The notes beneath the pieces are model-generated. The model saw nothing but the letters and a program-made list of their open reading frames with translations, was not told where the DNA came from and searched no databases. Positions 22,619-57,861 of a DNA stretch of 64,000 nt are shown here, in pieces. The number at the start of each line of letters is the position of its first letter. Within the stretch, counting starts at the first letter, position 1. Both the position numbers and the translations under genes were made by a program. The DNA comes from Ischnura elegans (taxonomy: Eukaryota > Arthropoda > Insecta > Odonata > Coenagrionidae), in contig NC_060257.1 in NCBI RefSeq assembly GCF_921293095.1, positions 67,712,472 to 67,776,471 of the forward strand. The letters are read 5' to 3'.

Positions 22619-25600
22619 TTATTTGGGCCTTATTTTCTCATACGTAAATTGCTGTTGAGCAATAGGGAGCTGCTGTGCTTTATCTGAAGTTTTGTCTTTA
22701 GTGGCAGCATTAGATCCAGCATACACAGCAGGTACTCCAGCTCTCCTCTTTGAAAAGTGGAACTGCTCCACAGCAAACTCATAAAATTCATTCTCCATCT
22801 GCCACACTTTTGACTTTTTAATAATGGCAATGGTTTCTGGAGATGGTTCCACTTTTTGCGATGTTTTACGAAGATGGGACTTATTACCTGCGAAAACACA
22901 ACATAATATTCAAACCTGCTGACTTTGAAAACAAATGGCAAAATTGGAAATAGATTGGTTTTCAATGGCGCTGATTTACACGTAGGATTTATTAAATATG
23001 TAATACTGATGCAACAATAGAAAAACAAACTCAGGAAACCTACATTTTTCTCGACTTCAAAAGCGTACTTTCATAAAAATTTCAAAGAGATTTTACAATT
23101 TACTACAAGCTGAAAAAAATAAAAATAGGAATGAAAATCAAATCAGAACAATGAGTTGCAAACTTTGTACAAGTTCATAAAAATGCTTCAACCCTATCTA
23201 GTCTCACATTTTACTTGATATAAAAAAATTGAATCTATTGGAAAACACATTAACTCCTTCCAAATTATTCCTTCATTTCATTAATTGAAATATAATATCA
23301 CTTCCGAATTATATTAATGCCACATTTTTTAACAATAAGCCAGATGACACAACATTTCAATATTTATGTATGCTATTTTATAATTTATACTAAGGAGTAA
23401 TAATGCATTTTAAGACCACAGATAAATTGGAAATTAAATGTTTCATTTTCCTATAAACTTGGAACTATCTACCTCAATTAATTATCAACACTAGATGTTT
23501 AACATTTTTTACACATGACAAAGTATGCGCACAAATCCTTTTTCTGATTTAATTATATTTATCTATATCTTTTTTTTTTCCAGATTTTGGTAAAATATAA
23601 ATGCTCAAGGATTTGGAATTCTGCCTTATATAGGATTGAAAGTTAAACCAGGAGTGACATTTGCTGTGAAAAATCATCTGGCCTATACAGGATTTGAAGC
23701 TGGATCCTCTGTTTGCAGGTCAGGTATGCTATCACCTATCAGTTACAAAACCAAGCCACCTTTTTCAAAATCAAATTCCAGACTGCATTTACCGCACAAG
23801 GTGTTGACATGTCAAGTCCACACTGAGGCACAGATTATGAAGGTCTTACTGGTTAAGCCACAGTTGGAAAGAAAAACCTAATTTTCAGCTATTCTGTGAA
23901 GTAGGTTTTCCAAAGCACTAGGCATAACAAATGACTTAACATGCAGTCTGAGTTGAAAGTAGACGACGTTGAGAAAAATGGCTAATTTTACGGAGTGCAG
24001 GATTCCTCGTTTGAATGTTACATCTATGCATAAAAAAACATCAAAAATGGAAACAAAATTTCCATTACAACAATTCACATGTAATAAGTATCATGACTGA
24101 GATATGAATACTTAAAGAATATGGCACATGGCACCATATGTTGATTATGGAATGGTTATGTAACAGCTGTGTAATGCAGGTACAGCTCCACTATTCCAAA
24201 AGGTGTTCAATACGTTAACAATATATACTTAAGTCACAACTGTAGAAAGAGATCAATAGAAACTTAACTGTTTTGATAATGAGCCAAAGCCCCACGGAAG
24301 AATTGAGGTAGGGTACTCTCTAACAGAGAAATAAAATCTGGAAGCTCTTCTGTTATTCCAACAAGCATGTAATGCTTAAGCAGGTTATTCTTGGCTTCTG
24401 CCAAAGCCCATTTGTTGCCAACCTCCCTAAAAAGGATGAAAAGCTGTTTACAAAAAAGTGAATCCAAAAATACAAAGAAAAAAAAATAGCCAAGATAATG
24501 ACTGAGTAGTCAATTATGTACTATATCAGTGTCTGATCATCGATACAGAGAAATAATACGCCACACAACTGCGTGGGGAAGTGTCTGACAATTTAGTTCC
24601 CAATGTGGCACCCTGGTTCTATACATCCTCGAAAGCTAGGAACCCAGCACATTGTTTAACTCACAAAATTTACTCAATATTAGAAAGTAAAATGAATATT
24701 TAATAATTTTTTTGCACTAATGGTTCTCCAGAGTTTAATTTACACTCATCATATCCTAAATTGCAATGCCAAGACTAATTGAGTGAAGACTGGCGTGCTT
24801 GCTGCCACAATAAATATGCACAAACGTCATCTCCAATGATTACAGCAGTGGGGAAAATTTTTTTGCCAAAGAATATGTAAACCATGAACAACAAATATTT
24901 TTGCCACTTTTTAAGTAACAATTTACAAGTTATGTAAAAGAGCTATCAACACCAATGTATTCTTTTGGCTTTGCTGAATCTTACAAGCTGCAACATCATA
25001 GAATATTTTCCACACAATTTTTAGCTTTGCAGAAAAAAATTTCAGAAAAGCATATTCACAACTTAAAGTGTCCGTTAAAATTTATTTTATTGAGGTTCCA
25101 CTGTATTGTATGAGCTAAAATGAAACCAATACATCATGCAATCACAAGCCATTATTAAGTTAAATAACTTAATTGTGCCCTGAAAATGGGCATGATAGAC
25201 CTTAAATCGTTCCTTATTGCCCTTGATTTCTACACTCTTTTGATTACAGATAATAACCACTAGCAGTTACGTCTTCACTGATAGGTCAAACAAACTAAAA
25301 GTCAAATCAGAGGCTTTACTATGGAGGGGGATGAGGGGTTAGATTGCCCTCCCCCAAAAAGCCTCAGAAAATAATTAAACTATTTTCTAGTTTTTACATA
25401 TCATAACCGCATCTGCTTAAAGTTAAAGATCATTTATTAATATCATGGCAGTGAGATGAGTCACTGAATACTGACTGCTAACTAACCCCAGGAGCCCCCT
25501 TTTTTTGGGAGAGAGGGATTCCTAGTTATACCACTGACAAGGGGAGACCACGAAACTTGCTCTGCCTTTTTCAATGCGTATTTTTTATGGCCTTCGCAAT

Positions 25601-28600
25601 GGTGAACACATCCCTGAACTAGTAGTGGTTCCGTTGAATGGGCCTTAGTTTGGCTGTAATTAATTAATTTTCATGAGGTACTTTTAACAACCCGCTTATA
25701 GGTCCATGACATCGCACCATTCAACTGATGGGTCAGGTGGGGTAGTGGTTGCGTTTAAGACTACCATCCGGGGGAAAGTACATTGTAGGAATACACGAGA
25801 CCATTCTAGCCCAGAATGTACGTACTATGTTGTAATCCTTGGTTTTCGAAGATTGACGTATTTTATACGCCAGCACGCCCGGTCCAGGGTCATCAACTTT
25901 TATTTCATCCTATTAATTAATGGAAATTATATTTCGGAATGGTTATTTTAGCACATAGGTACTGTGTAAGTAAACTCCCTTTGGAGTAAAGTGAATTACA
26001 AGTGTTCGAGAAATATGGCATTTTATAATCGTTTTGTGTTCTTATTAATTATGTCTGTACGCATATTGTCGATTGCCGCGAGCCTTTAATGGCATGTGCT
26101 CTCGCAAGAGTGGTTTTCATTTTTAATGTGGAAGTGGATCAGTATAAGCAATGAAAAAATTAACATTTTGGCGCACACCAACCCTTGCTAATGTAGTCGT
26201 CGTATCTCCGTGTTTGAAATGACACTGCTAAAATACCTAAACGCCATTATGATGATAAAAAATAGTCTCATGTCTATGCTTGTCGCAATTAAAATTAATG
26301 AAAAAGTTGATGCCATATGATCACAATGAAGACAACAAAATATACAGCCACTACGAAGCTTCTAACCCTGGTCCCCCGGATGGTAGTCTTAAACGCAACC
26401 ACTACCCCACCTGACCCATCAGTTGAATGGTGCGATATCATGGAACTATAAGCGGGTTGTTAAAAGTACCGCATGAAAATTAATTAATTACAGCCAAACT
26501 AAGGCCCATTCAACGGAACCACTACTAGTTCAGTGATGTGTTCACCATTGCGAAGGCCGTAAAAAATACGGCATTGAAAAAGGCGGAGCAAGTTTTGTGG
26601 TCTCCCCTCGTGAGTCAAATATTAGAGGTTCATTAAAAAATCAAGTCTTACAAATGAAATGTATGAAGTATCAACAATACTTGGTCCATGTATATTTTTT
26701 CAATGCTACAAAGAATCAAGAAATCGACACAGGTATGAGGGTTTCCAAAGATGCCTTGAGATAAAGTTGAACTCACCAACAGCCAGCAGCATGGCCACAA
26801 AAGAAAGGAATCTGAAGCCACATATTGTCAGGATCACAGTCTGGTTGATGCATTTGCACACAATCATCAAATGACTGCAAGAGAAAACAATGTAAGATGA
26901 AAGAGATTCAAATGGCATTTTTTCGTAGGAAGAAAACATAAAAAAGGCTCTTTAAAAGTCAGAGTGTCATAAATGACGATTAAATGTTCACAGAGGAAAC
27001 ATTGTTGGAATTCCTAAGGTTTATGAGATTAAATGGCTGATAAATACATATTCGAACATTACTTCCTGAAGACCCAAAAGTATTGCTTATTGTTAGCAGG
27101 TCAATTGCCAGACTATTGTCATTTGAAGATGGAACGAAGACTTAACATCCAAACTGTTGATAAAAAACTCAAACTTGGAACATATGTTTCCAATATCCAA
27201 GTCCACTATGGCTAAATGTCCTTCGAAACCCTTCCAAAATTGGTCAAGTTGACAAAAGTACACCTTTGATACGGTATAACTTTTAAAATTACATCAAACT
27301 CAACTCATTTTGCAGACAACATTTACATTAAGCATCCATATAGGAGTTAAATGCACATATATACATCATGTTTATCAATGCCTCATCCAAATTAGGTACA
27401 TATGATTGATATGTAATATAAGGAGCAATCTCTCATTAGGAGCAATTCATATGTAATAAGAGACCTCTAGGGGGAACATGAATTTACTGGTCAAGTGAAG
27501 GAATGGCGCCACCATGTATCATCAAGCTTCTTAATGATGAGAAATGGTGTTTATTATGACAGAAACAACAAAAAATAGGCACCAACTCATTATACCAGAT
27601 TACATATAAGTATTATTTGATACATTCCTCCACTTTTATTGAAGCTAATTGCATGGATTGCATTATTACTAGATACCTCAAAAGATAAACCCAAAACACT
27701 ACCTAGAATGTAACTTATCAACCTAATAAGAAGGAAAATAGTTTTTTTAAATTACCATCGTGTCACCATGTTTCCGACGAACTAGATGAGGGCGGAAATC
27801 ATCACCAAATCGAAGGAAGTAGTAATAGGATACCAACCTATCCAGAGGTTTTCGAATCAAATTGATGTATATTGGCCTTTGACTCACGCCAAATCTGAAG
27901 GAAAACAAGCAGATATTAATATAATCATAAAAATGCCTTAACAGGGTACACTTTCAAAATTATGTGCAGTTTAATATAATCAGAACTAGATGATCCGGTA
28001 AACTTCGTACCACCTTTTTATCTATCTATATATACATAAATCGATAGCTGTTCTTTAGTCTCGATAAAACTCAAAAACAGCTAAACTGATTTGACTAATC
28101 TTTAATTATAAACTAACTGTGGAAGTCCAAACATTTGATGCTCATTCCATCTTTCAACCATGTTTATCTAATCATTGTGTTACAGATAATTATGTCAACA
28201 AATAAATAACTACCTACAAATTTTTCAGTCAGTACCGTTTGTGCCCTATCACAATTAAATGAAACTTCATACTTATATGCATACTTCATACATACACTTC
28301 AAATGAATATACTATCTTCATCCACATTAAATACAACACAGTTACAGTAGACTTCATCATTTTAATGCTTTCTGATAAACTGTATTTTCTCAATTTTCGG
28401 TGTTTAAATAAGCAAAGATGACAAAGTCATTTGAAAACAACTGTCATATTTTTTAATGTATCCAAAAAGGGTTTATAATAATTTCCTATTCCAGAAACTA
28501 ATGAGTGTAATGGATCGGGTGGTGGCACCAATTGCAGCAATTTTTCTTTTCCACCAGCATAACATAATCCAGTAGATTCACCACTGTATCTTTACACCTT

Positions 28601-49300: not shown

Positions 49301-52225
49301 TCACTTTCTGCGCTTACCCAGGAAGCGGATGTTTGTGTAGATGGCGCTGGCCGGCCTCTTCCGGTTGCAGAAGTTGACGATGCGCCTCGAGTTGCCCTCT
49401 CTCGCCTCGTGCAGTGCTACCAACAGCTGGAAAATGTCCTCCCTGGTCGGATTGCACATGTACCTCCCGCGGGAATCGCTCGTCGTCGTCCTGCCTCCGG
49501 CGATCGTGTTACCCGATCGTCTCTTCCACGTGTAGCGTCCCGAATAGCGGGCATTTCTCTTGCCAACCCACCGTCCTTCCGGTTCCGCGACCGAGCTGCC
49601 ATCTGGCGGACTTCCCTCCCACTCCTCGTCACCGCCCTCTTCGTAAACGAGGCCTCGGCCGCTGTCCCCGCCCCCTCCTCCTGCCTCGTTCCGCAGGAGG
49701 CCGGCCAGGAAGTCGTATAGTCGTTCCAAGTCCTCCTCGCGGTTGGCAGAAGGCTCGTAGTAGGTGTAGTAGTCGGCTGTTGAGGAACGAAAGGCCATCA
49801 GGATAACGTAACAATGTTCATGGGCGGATCCAGTGAGGGGGTAGGGCTTTAGGTACAGTGGCGGCGATAATGGCTCCGCAGACCCCGCGGCGGCGCGGGG
49901 GCGGCAGGGGGGGGGGCGGCCCAAAGGGACCTCGTGACAAGCAGGGAAAAAATAATAACCAGTTTAAATAACTTGTTTATAAGTAAAAACTCTTTTAAAA
50001 CTCTTATGGCTGTAGAAATTGCAAAAAATGCATTTTAGAAATAATGGATTTACTGTTTGAAGACAAAAGCTGCTTTATGAGTTGCCTTTCTGACCTGTCC
50101 ACTGCATTGCAGCTTAATTCGATGCTACCCGTTGTAACAGCGATAGCCGAGAGAAGTTTTTGTAAACTTAAATTAATTAAGTCATAAATGAGGAATACCA
50201 TGACTCAAGCTCGACTGCATGACTTGGCTTTATTTAGCATTGAACATGAAGAAACTGAAAATAAATATCAACAAGGTGGTTGAAAAGATCTTAGCAGCGG
50301 AAAAGAGGGGATTGGGCTTTGGCAAGCTCAAATAATATTTGATAGATAATTGGTTAGTTATTTTAGAATACTTTCTGAAACATATTTTACAAAATCATCA
50401 CCAATAGGGTGGTTTCCTATTATTTTTTAAATGCCTAAATCGAAAAATAATTACTTCTGGAGTACGGATTTCACACTTCTATTTTTTAACATTACGATAT
50501 CTATTTTTCGCGATTGATTGAAAAGTGAAAAATTTAAAGCGCGGGAAAACGCGACGCACAATGGTCTGAAATCGAAAAAAGCCGGACAGAAGTCCAAAAT
50601 GGATTTTTTTTAGATAAAGACTTAAAACTTAGCATAAATACTCATAAATGATGGCTGATTTCTGTGCCATTTTACATACATTTGATCCGTTGCTGAGATA
50701 CAGCAGCTCAAACATGACCAATTTTAAAAAAAAACGCGCGCGATCTCGTTTTTCCCCGAAAATCTTTGAACTTAAGCAGGTGGTGTTGCGGTGGTATGAT
50801 TTTTATGGAATAAAAAACACACTATTCCTTAGATCAGATGCTTTGGCTATATTTTTCATCATTTTTGAAGATTTTGGTTCACATCTGTATGGTTTTACAA
50901 CACAAAATCGCGTACCCATTTTTCGCGTGAAAATTTAAATAAATTTGACATTATCTTTCGTTTACGAAATATGGTAATCGGGAAATTTACATCACAGTGT
51001 GAAATAGAAATTTCTTTATAATACTGCGAAGAAATCTTGGAAAAAAGTTAGCGACCAAGGAAATGGGAACGATTTTACGATCGCGCGTCAAGTCTGTGCT
51101 ACGCGACGCGGGACCCTGAGGCTCGGTAACTGCGGTCGATTTATCAAGTTTTTTTTTTCAGAACTAATTCTTAAAAATCGTCATTTGAAGCATGGCAAAT
51201 AGTCAGCATTGACCTAAAACATTATTACCAGGATAATGGCTCGATCGACTTGACCGTTTAACGCATAAATCCAGTGAAGATGGTAACAATTAGATTTTTG
51301 TCCGAGCCATTCTACGTTAAAGAAGTATGCTTCGGATATTGAAGCATTGAGGGATTAAGTCGGCATGCGAAAGAGAGATAGGGAAGTAAACAGTTTCTTG
51401 GAAAGGTATATACTCTTTGTCCCTACCCTCCCTTTCAAATCCTTGCCAACTATGCCTTATCCGTCAGTTTTATCGATAAAATGCATTGAGTGAAACTTAA
51501 AATCTATTTACTTTTATATTCTACGACACTAGGCTTATACAACTTATGGTTTTAATATTGAGGGGGAAAACTTTTGATATTTTGCTAAAATTGTATTTTC
51601 CAAACGTTATCCTCGGTTAGGCGCGATTTAAGTTAATCATATTTAGCTTACATTTTCCCAATCTCATTTTCAGACCAATTGGCAACCTCTTCTGGGTACA
51701 TCCGGAAAAATAACGAACATTAACTTTTAGTAACCACCGTAGCCGTCGAAATTGCAAGCCGCACATGTGGTATAGTATATATCACATTTAACAAAGGAAA
51801 TCAAAGTTTTTAACATAATAAAGTCAACTTTTTGCGGAGAGATGTCCAGGAACAACATATCTAATGATCAACGAAGATTTCGTATTGCCCTCAAATGTTA
51901 TTAAAACAGCTCAGGTACTATACGTGTTTCGATTGTTATAAAATCATCATCAGTACCTGATAGAAACACGTGTAGTAAGTTGTTAATTTTGAAACATGAT
52001 ATTTTATACCTTATGGTACAGTCAGTTTTTTGGTAATCAAGAATAGAAAATCATATATCTCAGATTAAGTGAATGATGTTTGTTAGCATAATTAGTGAAA
52101 GGTGAATTACTAGGGAGTGGGACCACGTCCTCGTCATCCAATGCCTGTGCTTCCGAAGCGACGACAGCGATGAACAAGCATAGCCCAAGGACTGTGGCAT
52201 GGAAGAGATCCAATCGGCGGCACAT
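49301..52225 (-). CDS. Secreted neuropeptide-like precursor ending in an amidated RFL peptide
   Basis: Two coding exons, 52225-52111 and 49776-49301, join in phase (591 nt, 196 aa plus stop) across a 2.3-kb GT/AG intron. An acceptor at 52236 implies an upstream non-coding exon. Residues 1-28 (ATVLGLCLFIAVVASEAQA at the end) are a signal peptide. Likely convertase sites are GKR at 110-112, KRR at 123-125, RKR at 177-179 and GKRRK at 192-196. These would release N113-W122, and P180-L191 (PASAIYTNIRFL) with a C-terminal amide made from G192. Residues 144-176 hold C146 and C175 around a helix-like core (NPTREDIFQLLVALHEAREG) and look conserved. The second exon is much more GC-rich than its surroundings. 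From memory it is closest to the insect 'RFLamide' class; that name is unverified. The layout itself is that of a neuropeptide or hormone precursor acting outside the cell. Confidence 0.75.
50405..50556 (+). mobile_element. Mariner-like MITE, family TAGGGTRGTTTCCT, copy 5 (cut short)
   Basis: Starts TAGGGTGGTTTCCTATTA at 50405 and follows the reference copy up to gcgggaaaacgcgacg at 50556. There it is broken by the Transib-like end at 50557. It lies in the intron of the peptide precursor gene. Confidence 0.7.
50557..51130 (+). mobile_element. Transib-like element arm A (right end not found)
   Basis: Begins CACAATGGTCTGAAATCGAA directly after CGACG inside a mariner-like MITE. It then tracks the left arm of the complete element at 53043-57605 for several hundred bases (shared landmarks: agtccaaaatgg, ccgttgctgagatacag, aataaaaaacacac). 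The inner limit is approximate. Confidence 0.55.
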
Positions 52226-52799: not shown

Positions 52800-53037
52800 C
52801 ACAGTGGTCCGAAATCAGAAAAAGCCGGAGCCGGATAAAAGTCCAAAATTGCTTTTTTTAAGTTAGAGACTTGAAACTTGGTATATATGCTCACAAATAA
52901 TTGATGATCACGACACAATACGTCATTGATCATAGATACCATCCGTTGCTAAGATACAGGGCACCAAACATGAAGAAATTTCCAAAATCACGCCCGATCT
53001 CGTATTTCTTCGAAAAACTTCGTTCGTGAAGTGCGAC
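52800..53037 (+). mobile_element. Transib-like element arm B, interrupted
   Basis: CACAGTGGTCCGAAATCAGA begins a third related arm, about 240 bp long, up to the insertion point of the complete element. The landmarks ccgttgctaagatacag and agtccaaaattgc match arms A and C. Its own right end was not found. Confidence 0.5.
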
Positions 53038-54644
53038 CGGTGCACAGTGGGCGGAAATGGGAAAAAGTCGGACAAAATTACAAAATGGCTTTTTTTGAGT
53101 TATTAACTTGAAACTTCGCAGGTATACTCAGAAATGATTGAAATTTATGGATATATACTTCATTTGACATAGATTTTACCCGTTACTGAGATACAGAGGC
53201 TCAAACGTGAGCAAATTTCCATAAAAACGCCCGTTTTCAATTTTCTCTGAAAATCTTCCAAAGTAAGTGGATGGTGAAGTTATGGGTGGATTCTTGCGAA
53301 ATAAAAAACCACATAATCTGTTGGCATGGTGTTTTTTCTTTAATTTTCCGTAATCTTAAAGAATACCGTCCAGAAATTCTTACCGTGCAGTAACAAAATG
53401 GCGGATACTGTTTTTCGACAAAGTTTTACATTTAGGTAGAGTTTCAAATAGGTTTTCGGCAAGGTCGCGCGGAGTAACTTATATGAGAGCATTTTTTGAA
53501 GATTTCTTAAGGTTTTCATGCAGTTTTCTTTGTAATAAGTTTGCGTCGCCGGAAATGACATTGATTTTTCGACCGCGCGGCAGGGTTCGTCTCCGCGCGT
53601 CGGGAGTTGGATTAGCCGCGACGCGGTAAGGTTATTGAAGCTGTATGGGTTTTAACGCTCACCATTCACCGTTTTTATGTTTTTCTTCAAGACACCGATT
53701 TTCAAATGGTCTATGGTGAAGACAGTGGAGGTTTTTCATGCGATGTAATTGCACGTGTCATCGAAGTTGATTCCGTTTTCTTTGGATACGATCGAAGACC
53801 ATACTTCTATTAAAAGCGTTCAAACCTCGAAAAAGTGAGTTGTTTTCCTGGGACTCATACAAAAAGACCTACCAGAAAGATACCAGCTGAGACCCTTATA
53901 CCTTCTTCACTCTCCGATCCCTGACCCTCAGGATTCTACTTCGAAAACGGTCGTTTTATGACACCGCGGAGTGGAGCCTTTGAATGTCTTAACTTATTTC
54001 CACGGGAACTTCTAGCTTTTTTAAAATGTGTATCATACCCTCAGTTCTACTTTATATCCATAAAATGTTTTCTTCTTTAGAAGCAGAGAATAATATTCAT
54101 AAATATGGCTAATAATACAGTGTTCAGTGACTTAACATAACTACTTATCATGAAGCTAGGGCATAACATCTGATGGCAACTAAATAATCTAAATTTTATG
54201 GACGAAAATTATGGATCGCGTGACAATCTCATGTTCGGCACCTACAGTAAGTACTAGAAAGTTGTTGAAGCAGATACGATGAAGATAGGGTAGTTTAGGT
54301 AGACAATTCATCGGAACTTCTAGCTTTTTTAAAACGTGTGTCATACCCTCAGTTCTACTTCGACTGTGGTGTAGGAAAGTTAAGTTCTCTTGAGTGCGCA
54401 GAATTTGTGAAAGTGACTTGAATTTGTTTGTGGAGCGTAGAGATTTCAAACTTCCAATTGCCTGTAAGTACGTTTTTCAATAAATCCCCGAACATCTTTT
54501 TCAAAATAGTTATTTTAATTTATATTACTAATTTTTGCTGAAAAATTTCTTAGCATTCCTTTCCTAACGAAAATAAATTACAGCTTAAATTATCAAATGG
54601 CACTGTTTAAATTCCAATCGATACGACATATACAATATGTTGGA

Positions 54645-54822
54645 AGTAAGGAAATAAAACTTTGTAAGGTTCACTGTTATTTAATTATGGGCACGACCCG
54701 GGTTTCGTAACTTGGTTACATCGTCAGGTTGACGATGACCTGACGATGTAACCAAGTTACGAAACCCGGGTCGTGCCCATAATTAAATAACAGTGAACCT
54801 TACAAAGTTTTATTTCCTTACT
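54645..54822. repeat. Perfect palindrome, 84-bp arms with 10-bp spacer
   Basis: The arm at 54645-54728 is exactly inverted at 54739-54822, around the spacer ttgacgatga. The arms include the motif gcacgacccgggtttcgtaa. It lies within the transposon at 53043-57605 and is probably a foldback element inserted there. Confidence 0.85.
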
Positions 54823-55354
54823 CCCAATATGGAGAGGTTTCACAAAGTAAAGCCTGAAGTTATTAGTTAAATACAATATGCATTCAGAAAATCGTATGTG
54901 GCAGTGCAGCGTACACAAACCAACAGAATATTTATCAATATCAGGTGTACGATATTTTACATCTCCTAAGTTAATCATACCCGACGCTCTTGCTCCGCAG
55001 ATTTAGAACCTCATGATTCAGCTGTCCGTCAGTGTGTTGCAAACTAAAAACTATCGCTTTTCTTAATTTCGAAATGACTATACTTTCCTGTAGGATGATA
55101 AATTATATGGGTTTTAAGATTAAGAAAAAATTAGGAAAATAAGGTGAGCAATATAAGCATTACTTTTCCGTTGATCATTGTCAGAAGTAAACAGAACTTG
55201 ATCGTGTAAATTCCTGATCATTAACGCCATCCACTTGCCTTTCAATATAGGTAATGTCTCTGATTTTGTAACTTCTTTCGTCTCTTTTTTTCACCTAAAG
55301 CGGATGGGATGACAAAATCGTGTCGACGTCGGCCGTGGATTTTCCCAGATAGTG

Positions 55355-56388
55355 TCACCTAAATTGTAGAGCCCAGGTGTGAGAAGTGCCTCTGGTGGAA
55401 GTTAAATTTTTTATCAAAAGTTTAGAGATAAATGTAATTAGCCAAGAGGAAGTGGAAATAAGACTTGAGTCGTTACCTGTAGCGTCGTTAATCAAACTAA
55501 GAGATACAAGGGAACTCATGAATAGGAATTCGTCTACAGCATCCACTTGTTGCCACATTTGTTTATATTGAGAGTGGCCCAAACTTCCATCAAAACCGTA
55601 CTTAGAGATTAATGTGTAGTTCATCACACATTTTAATTCTTGAGAGGTGGAAGTGGTAGCTAAGCAGGCTATTGTTCTCGATATGGTGTGGGTCAGTGGT
55701 GCTTGAAGGTTTACTTCGCACATGGTCTCGGTTATTTTAATTCTTTCGTTATAAAAGTCCTTTTTTTGTTAGCGCTATTCTGTCGTATCCGGGATACAAA
55801 TCGTGTCCATGGCTCAGAGCTGTCCAACGGAAAGACCGATATTGACTCTTGGTCAACTCAGACGCAATCATCAATGACAGTGCCTCTTCCACTGTCATCT
55901 CAGTGTGGACCTTTTCACTCGTCCTCCACTTTGAAAAAACTCTCATGGCCCGAGTAGGGGTCGTAGTTGTTATTTCTGCAATTAGGTGAGCTGCTGCAGT
56001 GTCTCCCCTCTCTCTCAAACTCACAGATGCCGCGAGAGCAAGCCCAGCAGTAGTTTTTAAAGTTTGAATTTTCTTCTGCGTGATATAATACATGAGGTGC
56101 GACATTTTTTTGGCCGCCCGGGAATGCATAGCAAATATAATATGAATTTTGTAACATGAAGTTACAGGGGGAATTTTATTTAATTCAATCAATTTGAGAG
56201 GAATATATTTTTAGAAAAATACAATACCAACCTGCTGTCGTTGAAGTATCGGGTAAGTGATGCATAACAAATTCTGGAAATGTTATAGATTCAGCGAGCC
56301 AACTTTTGTATGTCAGGAAGTCATTGAGAAATTTCAGAGCATCAGGGTCTTGTCTTAAATTCAGCCTCCGCGATAAATAATGCAGCAA
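55355..56388 (-). pseudogene. Decayed protein of the Transib-like transposon
   Basis: Reading leftward from 56388, several frames carry pieces of what looks like one protein. First comes a P-G-R-P-K-K then basic motif near 56120 with a stop after it. Then LALAASVSLRERGDTAAAHL, an EITTTTPTRAMRV stretch, MTVEEALSLMIASELTKSQY, and DLYPGYDRI (to about 55749). After an interruption come LISKYGFDGSLGHSQYKQM and FLFMSSLVSLSL (55723-55355). I recall this order from a family of animal transposon-like proteins of unassigned name. At least one frameshift and in-frame stops show it is dead. The aspartate in YGFDGS could be a catalytic acid, but that is inference. Confidence 0.6.
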
Positions 56389-57861
56389 ATATTTTTTTTC
56401 CGAGTGATTATTTTTTTTCCCAATTCCAATATTATTTCATTACTTCATTGGCATTATCTATTGAGTGGCGGATGGAGCCTATTTAAAATTAAGAAATAAT
56501 AAATTTGTCGAACCTATGGTGTTCCAATGTCCTAATGAGTACACGGGGAAGAACGTATGGTAAATGTGTAAAAGACATGGTAATCTATAAGTCAAAGTAG
56601 AACTGAGGGTATGATACACATTTTAAAAAAGCTAGAAGTTCCCGTGGAAATAAGTTAAGACATTCAAAGGCTCCACTCCGCGGTGTCATAAAACGACCGT
56701 TTTCGAAGTAGAATCCTGAGGGTCAGGGATCGGAGAGTGAAGAAGGTATAAGGGTCTCAGCTGGTATCTTTCTGGTAGGTCTTTTTGTATGAGTCCCAGG
56801 AAAACAACTCACTTTTTCGAGGTTTGAACGCTTTTAATAGAAGTATGGTCTTCGATCGTATCCAAAGAAAACGGAATCAACTTCGATGACACGTGCAATT
56901 ACATCGCATGAAAAACCTCCACTGTCTTCACCATAGACCATTTGAAAATCGGTGTCTTGAAGAAAAACATAAAAACGGTGAATGGTGAGCGTTAAAACCC
57001 ATACAGCTTCAATAACCTTACCGCGTCGCGGCTAATCCAACTCCCGACGCGCGGAGACGAACCCTGCCGCGCGGTCGAAAAATCAATGTCATTTCCGGCG
57101 ACGCAAACTTATTACAAAGAAAACTGCATGAAAACCTTAAGAAATCTTCAAAAAATGCTCTCATATAAGTTACTCCGCGCGACCTTGCCGAAAACCTATT
57201 TGAAACTCTACCTAAATGTAAAACTTTGTCGAAAAAACAGTATCCGCCATTTTGTTACTGCACGGTAAGAATTTCTGGACGGTATTCTTTAAGATTACGG
57301 AAAATTAAAGAAAAAACACCATGCCAACAGATTATGTGGTTTTTTATTTCGCAAGAATCCACCCATAACTTCACCATCCACTTACTTTGGAAGATTTTCA
57401 GAGAAAATTGAAAACGGGCGTTTTTATGGAAATTTGCTCACGTTTGAGCCTCTGTATCTCAGTAACGGGTAAAATCTATGTCAAATGAAGTATATATCCA
57501 TAAATTTCAATCATTTCTGAGTATACCTGCGAAGTTTCAAGTTAATAACTCAAAAAAAGCCATTTTGTAATTTTGTCCGGCTTTTTCCCATTTCCGCCCA
57601 CTGTGCGGTGGTGCAATTATTGGTGAGCATGTGCACCTCGGAGCCCAAATTGTTTAACTGTTACCCTAATGACGATGAGGAAGTCTCTCATCGAAACGTT
57701 GAAATTTAAGCCTTACCCGGTGCCAAACCCGAGAAGATTTTATCGAATTTAATAAATGCTAAGCGTAATTTCGTCAGAGAATTTCCTTTTTATGTGTAAA
57801 TGGCTGGTATTACAGCACCCCCCGCCACTTGCCTGTTGAAGCGGCTTGCGGGGTAATATGT

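Follow-up and report, generated by a model that had tools for sequence, protein, structure and literature searches.

At positions 53043-57605 of a 64-kb stretch of Ischnura elegans DNA (contig C12, 67712472-67776471; hereafter the window) lies a complete transposable element of 4563 bp with both ends present, in which two inverted arms of about 1 kb enclose a 2.5-kb interior whose minus strand carries a disrupted transposase gene. Comparison of this window element with its relatives in the genome (1.72 Gb, 110 contigs) shows that in every copy examined both arms have evolved as one sequence, and we consider it probable that the element is a non-autonomous Transib whose left arm is an inverted copy of its 5′ end and whose arms are homogenised by inter-arm gene conversion.

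The element carries the tip CACAGTGGGCGGAAATGGGA at 53043 and the same word, reverse-complemented, at 57605, each including a heptamer CACAGTG (53043-53049, plus strand; 57599-57605, minus strand) like that of recombination signal sequences (RSSs), and CGGTG stands on either flank (53038-53042 and 57606-57610) as a 5-bp target-site duplication (TSD). The left arm (53043-54053, plus strand, 1011 bp) and the right arm (56594-57605, minus strand, 1012 bp) differ by a single substitution (arm position 26) and by an indel of one base near position 369. The initial annotation had described a complete transposon with RSS-like tips, CGGTG flanks and arms of about 1011 bp and had proposed aligning the arms; the measured tips, flanks and arms confirm that description. 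The structure is not a product of chance, since, at a spacing of 0.3-12 kb, the element's tips are the only perfect inverted 20-mer pair of the window whose outer 5-mers are equal (inverted 20-mer pairs at that distance number 1070, 108 of them outside the element) and reversed controls of the tip gave no occurrence genome-wide, against 18 for the exact 20-bp tip and 665 for a relaxed tip pattern.

The two arms of a copy evolve as one sequence

We compared 17 copies having both tips (34 arms), a set to which C2_9 (also L068) and C2_90 were deliberately added, the latter for its inverted flank, and from which C19b and C19c were excluded as duplicates of C19a by their identical flanks. Eleven loci were fetched by the exact tip, and L009, L011, L013 and L014 were left uncompared as they had a single arm in the 8 kb fetched. 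In a tree of the 34 arms, those of the same copy were sisters in 17 of 17 copies, with a mean of 0.82 substitutions within a copy vs 23.5 between copies, whether the same or opposite sides were compared. Of 115 informative columns, 113 showed agreement between the arms in every copy; of 94 states that occurred in a single copy, 81 were carried by both of its arms and 13 by one; and none of 942 columns separated left from right arms. Separate evolution since the arms formed would have grouped left arms with left arms, but arms are sister within every copy. Sequence passes between the arms of a copy; we infer that the cause is inter-arm gene conversion.

Arms of this length look derived in this lineage, because four other Transibs of the same genome have inverted tips of 38-43 nt (43 nt in L076, 39 nt in L079, and 38 nt in L077 and L078, whose sequences place them in one family). 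The initial annotation's statement that known Transib termini are short is true of these four; it may not extend to Hztransib, which an article in PubMed Central (PMC1852546) says, in words and without a length, "has long TIRs" (terminal inverted repeats), and the rarity of long arms in Transib therefore cannot be asserted outright. Its phrase "foldback derivative" suits the element well, as long, apparently derived arms surround a dead gene. Measured from the right tip, gene landmarks fall at 1320, 1585, 2006, 2277, 2422 and 2604 in the window element and at 1256, 1570, 1984, 2217, 2367 and 2498 in L079, a matching spacing that puts the right end in its ordinary place; the right arm is probably the native 5′ end. 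On the left side, the position of L079's last exon is occupied in the window element by an inverted copy of the right end, with no recognisable C-terminus. In the simplest history, an inverted copy of the 5′ end would have overwritten the 3′ end and taken the place of the 3′ part of the gene.

Copying appears to have run past the arm edges as well. Arms were measured whole in six independent copies (the window element, L010, L012, L015, L016 and L017), and the inner boundary lies at 1011 in four of them. In L010 the arms reach 1465 bp, with three substitutions, and the left side holds interior sequence found elsewhere on the right side only; in L017 and its duplicates they reach 1109 bp, again with three substitutions, and the right side holds sequence found elsewhere on the left side only. 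Since these two copies are extended from opposite sides, inward copying seems to occur in both directions.

The TSD was equal in 15 of the 17 copies, and the remaining two carry inverted flanks. At C1_114 (C1:114687675) the right flank is an exact reverse complement of the left over 1472 bp (100%), with no TSD; a single CGCAG lies 282 bp left of the inverted tract, with no arm beside it. At C2_90 (C2:90005062) the inverted flank covers 968 aligned columns, 961 of them identical with 4 substitutions, and beyond it come a fragment of an outer arm (arm position 484 to tip) and then CGTAG; the arms of this copy show 0 substitutions over their first ~970 bp and 5 clustered at 978-994. The structure of C2_90 fits a break in the right arm after which the left arm would have been copied outward past its tip and rejoined to the broken stub. 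Foldback priming at breaks has been proposed as a source of inverted duplications in yeast (PMC10622511).

Transib identity, family and disabled gene

The remnants of the transposase gene follow one another on the minus strand, from an N-terminal exon remnant ITFPEFVMHHLP at 56251-56286, recognised by eye against L079, through a piece at 55749-56192 that is open until a frameshift at an A-run, a piece with the first catalytic Asp (YGFDGS) at 55355-55723, the remnant TSTRFCHPIRF at 55297-55329 and the second catalytic site, where Asn replaces Asp (LTMINGKV), at 55161-55184, to the last recognisable remnant (ICGARASGM...LHCHIRFSECIL) at 54865-55044. Two of the window pieces match the structure 6pqn of HzTransib (from Helicoverpa zea) colinearly, with E=0.65 and 9.9e-5. 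The same region is open for 287 amino acids (aa) in the sibling copy L037, and there 6pqn is the sole convincing solved relative (E=3.7e-12). RAG1 chains were matched by neither the window nor the L037 pieces at E up to 10, and a Pfam search with the two window pieces returned nothing above cut-off. L076, a Transib of the same genome with a 691-aa open frame, aligns to the window element in order over residues 131-464 (E up to 0.01), and L077, another, matches 6pqn at 7e-117 and RAG1 at 3.2e-6. This homology, together with the 5-bp CGNCG-type duplications found across copies, supports membership in the Transib superfamily and agrees with the relationship that the initial annotation had proposed.

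Flanking 5-mers, whose tabulation had also been suggested there, were taken from the first 100 of the 665 relaxed tips, all on contigs C1 and C2 and some of them from related copies. CNNNG was found at 83 and CGNCG at 48, vs 3.7% and 0.1% of 5-mers in the window; CGNCG is the stated Transib target site (PMC4735498). The flank TATCG recurs at nine of these tips and looks like a single insertion multiplied within a larger repeat. Among facing tip pairs within 10 kb, 13 of 15 had equal 5-bp duplications, two had inverted flanks and none had any other arrangement, and the 17-copy set gave the same picture of 5-bp CGNCG-type duplications in its 15 copies with equal flanks. Duplications of 2-4 or 8 bp and a transposase of another superfamily (CACTA, hAT), both of which had been named as evidence that would speak against Transib, were not seen among the copies examined, which show 5 bp or, in two, inverted flanks. 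CACTA and hAT elements duplicate 2-3 bp or 8 bp, and membership in either was rejected on the 5-bp length; membership in the P superfamily, with Galileo, was rejected on the Transib homology of the transposase.

A CACWGTG-type heptamer stands on 34 of 34 arms in the 17 copies, part of which were found via the tip. Behind it, at a 22-bp spacer, the nonamer-like word ACAAAATTA (53072-53080, plus strand; 57568-57576, minus strand) scores 6/9 at both window tips against the RSS nonamer consensus ACAAAAACC, with one other spacer tying on the left and others on the right. At the same spacer the TCCG family and L079 score 7/9 and L076 5/9, and L077 scores 6/9 and 7/9 at spacer 23. The initial annotation had suggested looking for a spaced A-rich nonamer; with other spacers tying in the window tips, the block at 22 bp is a candidate for one, compatible with Transib, for which symmetric spacers of 20-22 bp are in print (PMC8355894), but weak by itself. 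An asymmetric 12/23 arrangement was rejected, the tips being alike at both ends and spacer 12 scoring 5/9.

A query with the arm gave at least 61 matches, including 40 arms of nearly full length (the best 40 of 1825 candidates scored), and one with the interior protein gave at least 150 places (the best 150 of 825). The arms of a second subfamily, represented by L068, are ~94% like those of the window element. About a dozen copies of this subfamily (e.g., C2:9557700, C7:25958556 and C12:94581254) share an identical protein score of E=1.7e-51, some of them near contig ends, which we read as a recent burst or segmental spread. A different family, with the tip CACAGTGGTCCG, resembles the window element at only ~77% across its outer 215 bp and is long-armed too (677 nt at 99.85% plus 272 nt at 97.4%). 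At least two Transib-tipped families of the genome thus possess long arms. Two shorter elements with the same tips and 5-bp duplications, at C2:64141543-64141889 (335 bp) and C1:72022820-72023748 (917 bp), resemble miniature inverted-repeat transposable elements derived from such copies.

The gene itself is disabled. The catalytic triad of HzTransib is D126, D225 and E436 (PMC6941560), which on the 6pqn chain corresponds by hand count (offset 17) to D109, D208 and E419 in FDG, TMIDGK and SEEASEARNK. The window element keeps FDG, and its second site reads TMINGK; no match to the C-terminal part with the E region was found in it, and the L076 alignment contains nothing past residue 464. TMINGK also stands in 29 of the 30 family loci L020-L049 (L041 gave no reading) and in L068, with TMINGKA in L069, vs TMIDGK or TMLDGK in L076, L077 and L079. 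The ratio of nonsynonymous to synonymous change (dN/dS) in the remnant is 0.48-0.98 in 10 of 12 pairs, synonymous change being saturated in the other two, and 0.84 when pooled within the subfamily; being near neutral, it points to a passenger rather than a kept protein. Some copies retain an open frame of 284-287 aa, and five of the six examined for this region are frameshifted. Because of the D-to-N change at the second site, the absent C-terminal part and the near-neutral dN/dS, we regard the window element as non-autonomous and probably unable to move itself.

Other Transibs of the genome are plausible sources of helper transposase, which is predicted to move the window element by cut and paste. 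Long open frames, of 691, 550 and 497 aa, stand at three loci within elements whose 5-bp flanks are equal, and a query with a C-terminal motif gave at least 150 places, the best 150 of 3464 candidates scored. A close Transib with a full C-terminus was not noticed by eye as an adjacent pair among the 150 listed places per query, and L069, checked for the missing C-terminus, matched only to residue ~352 of L076.

Several further features lie in and around the window element. An insertion of ~231 bp at 54640-54870 contains a 93-nt hairpin (98%) and is flanked by a 9-10-bp repeat, ATACAATATG; because it is absent from L068, it was probably a later arrival in the window element's subfamily that then spread with it. 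An extra copy of the arm's inner 48 bp lies within the interior at 54313-54360 (plus strand). The element is inserted into an arm of an older Transib relative, of which the CACAGTGGTCCG tip and first ~240 bp remain at 52800-53042 (plus strand) and a brief continuation from 57611, with the alignment continuing across the rejoined empty site. At 50557-51406 stands a lone arm of ~850 bp from the CACAGTGGTCCG family, 84-88% identical to L082, for which no partner arm was found in the window; L009, L011 and L014 likewise have one arm in the 8 kb fetched. At 25533-26615 an inverted repeat (199 nt at 97% plus 54 nt at 85%, with a centre of ~0.6 kb) had no match among the Transib sequences compared.

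Weighing the explanations

In the explanation that we favour, a break in or beside one arm would be repaired from the sequence of the opposite arm; copying that ran past the inner edge would lengthen the arms, and copying that ran past the tip would carry flanking DNA along. Several points weigh against it. At C1_114 a search for the remnant of an outer arm found none, and CTGCG does not occur within 400 bp to the right of the inverted tract. At C2_90 the outer CGTAG matches the CTTAG at the left tip in four of five positions, and the outer stub differs from the copy's arms at 8 of 485 columns, above the flank-based expectation. The arms are without similarity to the ends of L079 past ~56 bp, and their proposed origin rests on spacing and gene order relative to that single comparison element. 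Transposition and conversion are both read from sequence, and C2_90 does not decide whether homogenisation happens in place or at transposition.

This last point leaves room for a possible, though unlikely, account in which arms are equalised at transposition, each jump or its repair rebuilding both from one template as in long terminal repeat (LTR) elements, with within-copy differences dating the insertion. It would fit the small number of these differences, 0-3 per ~940 bp, and the confinement of 13 of the 94 private states to a single arm, and at C2_90 the whole-arm difference (5 at 978-994) is as large as that of the inverted flank (4 substitutions in 968 columns). The inverted flanks of C1_114 and C2_90, however, lie outside the element, which places at least these two events at an insertion site; moreover, Transib is regarded as a cut-and-paste transposon, and no step in its cycle is known to copy one end onto the other.

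One conjecture is that Transib cutting provides the breaks for repair between arms. When RAG-type enzymes and Hztransib cut, the end of the element is left blunt and the flank is closed as a hairpin (PMC6941560). A transposase that cut a single tip would leave these same two products, and the freed arm would be repaired from the opposite one. That such one-ended cleavage drives arm identity, inward lengthening and outward flank copying alike is a speculation that we hold doubtful. If it were true, the foldback structure would be a by-product of the RAG-type cutting mechanism, and the inverted-flank scar would record, as a fossil in the sequence, that a relative of RAG had cut at one end only.

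It is very unlikely that assembly or polishing errors made the arms alike and that the inverted flanks are foldback read artefacts. In favour of this account, the inverted flank of C1_114 is 100% identical over 1472 bp. Copies nevertheless keep a unique centre, unlike a simple foldback read, the inverted flank of C2_90 has 4 substitutions, and the private states that both arms carry (81 of 94) come from copies on many contigs.

The KP protein of the P element is a repressor, and the short transposase might have been kept in a similar role, with the long arms supplying two promoters. The 284-287-aa open frame of some copies and the placement of the right arm where another Transib has its 5′ region are in keeping with this, but the near-neutral dN/dS (0.48-0.98) and the frameshift in five of six copies make it highly improbable. 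Scarcely credible is the view that nothing is homogenised and that long arms arose recently and separately in each copy, alike because young: near-identity of the arms in each copy would follow, yet the arm core is common to copies, four of six sharing the boundary at 1011 and the other two extending this same core by 98 and 454 bp, with the listed arm places 97-100% alike and L068 arms ~94%.

Related systems and significance

HzTransib is the closest known system to the window element, sharing transposase sequence, CACAGTG tips, a 5-bp CGNCG-type duplication and, less clearly, an A-rich block ~22 bp further on. The window element differs in its ~1-kb arms (vs 38-43 nt in four other Transibs of its own genome), its dead and shortened gene and the concerted behaviour of its arms. 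Foldback and Mutator-like elements with long TIRs have long inverted arms in common with it, combined with other transposases and duplication lengths. Galileo, a Drosophila element of the P superfamily, likewise has long foldback-like arms that are 98-100% alike within a copy, and the extension of its arms by copying internal sequence to the opposite side, proposed in the same accounts (PMC3573991, PMC4168063), resembles what we see in L010 and L017. Galileo differs in its P-type transposase, where ours is of Transib type, and the passages describing it in these accounts do not mention inverted flanks past the tips. Because Galileo already shows it, arm copying is known in kind.

Elements of the RAG1L-RAG2L (ProtoRAG) type share CAC-type tips and 5-bp duplications with the window element (PMC7204232). 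They carry RAG2L as well as RAG1L, whereas the only strong relative of the window element is Transib (RAG2L was not searched for); the term "RAG-like" in the initial annotation is not supported in this narrow sense by the protein matches, those of the window and L037 pieces going to 6pqn and none to RAG1. A Transib with long TIRs copied onto each other was not found in open-access PubMed Central text, in which PMC1852546 mentions the long TIRs of Hztransib. What appears to be new here is the Transib setting of long arms copied onto each other.

RAG1 and the recombination signals are thought to descend from the Transib lineage, and the behaviour of Transib ends therefore bears on the origins of V(D)J recombination. 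Within one genome, long-armed copies stand together with short-tipped Transibs and open transposase frames, a coexistence that allows one to test whether a RAG-type transposase is helped or hindered by long arms and whether a cut at one end is repaired from the opposite arm. For the dating of such families, low divergence between the inverted repeats of a copy need not be an insertion clock.

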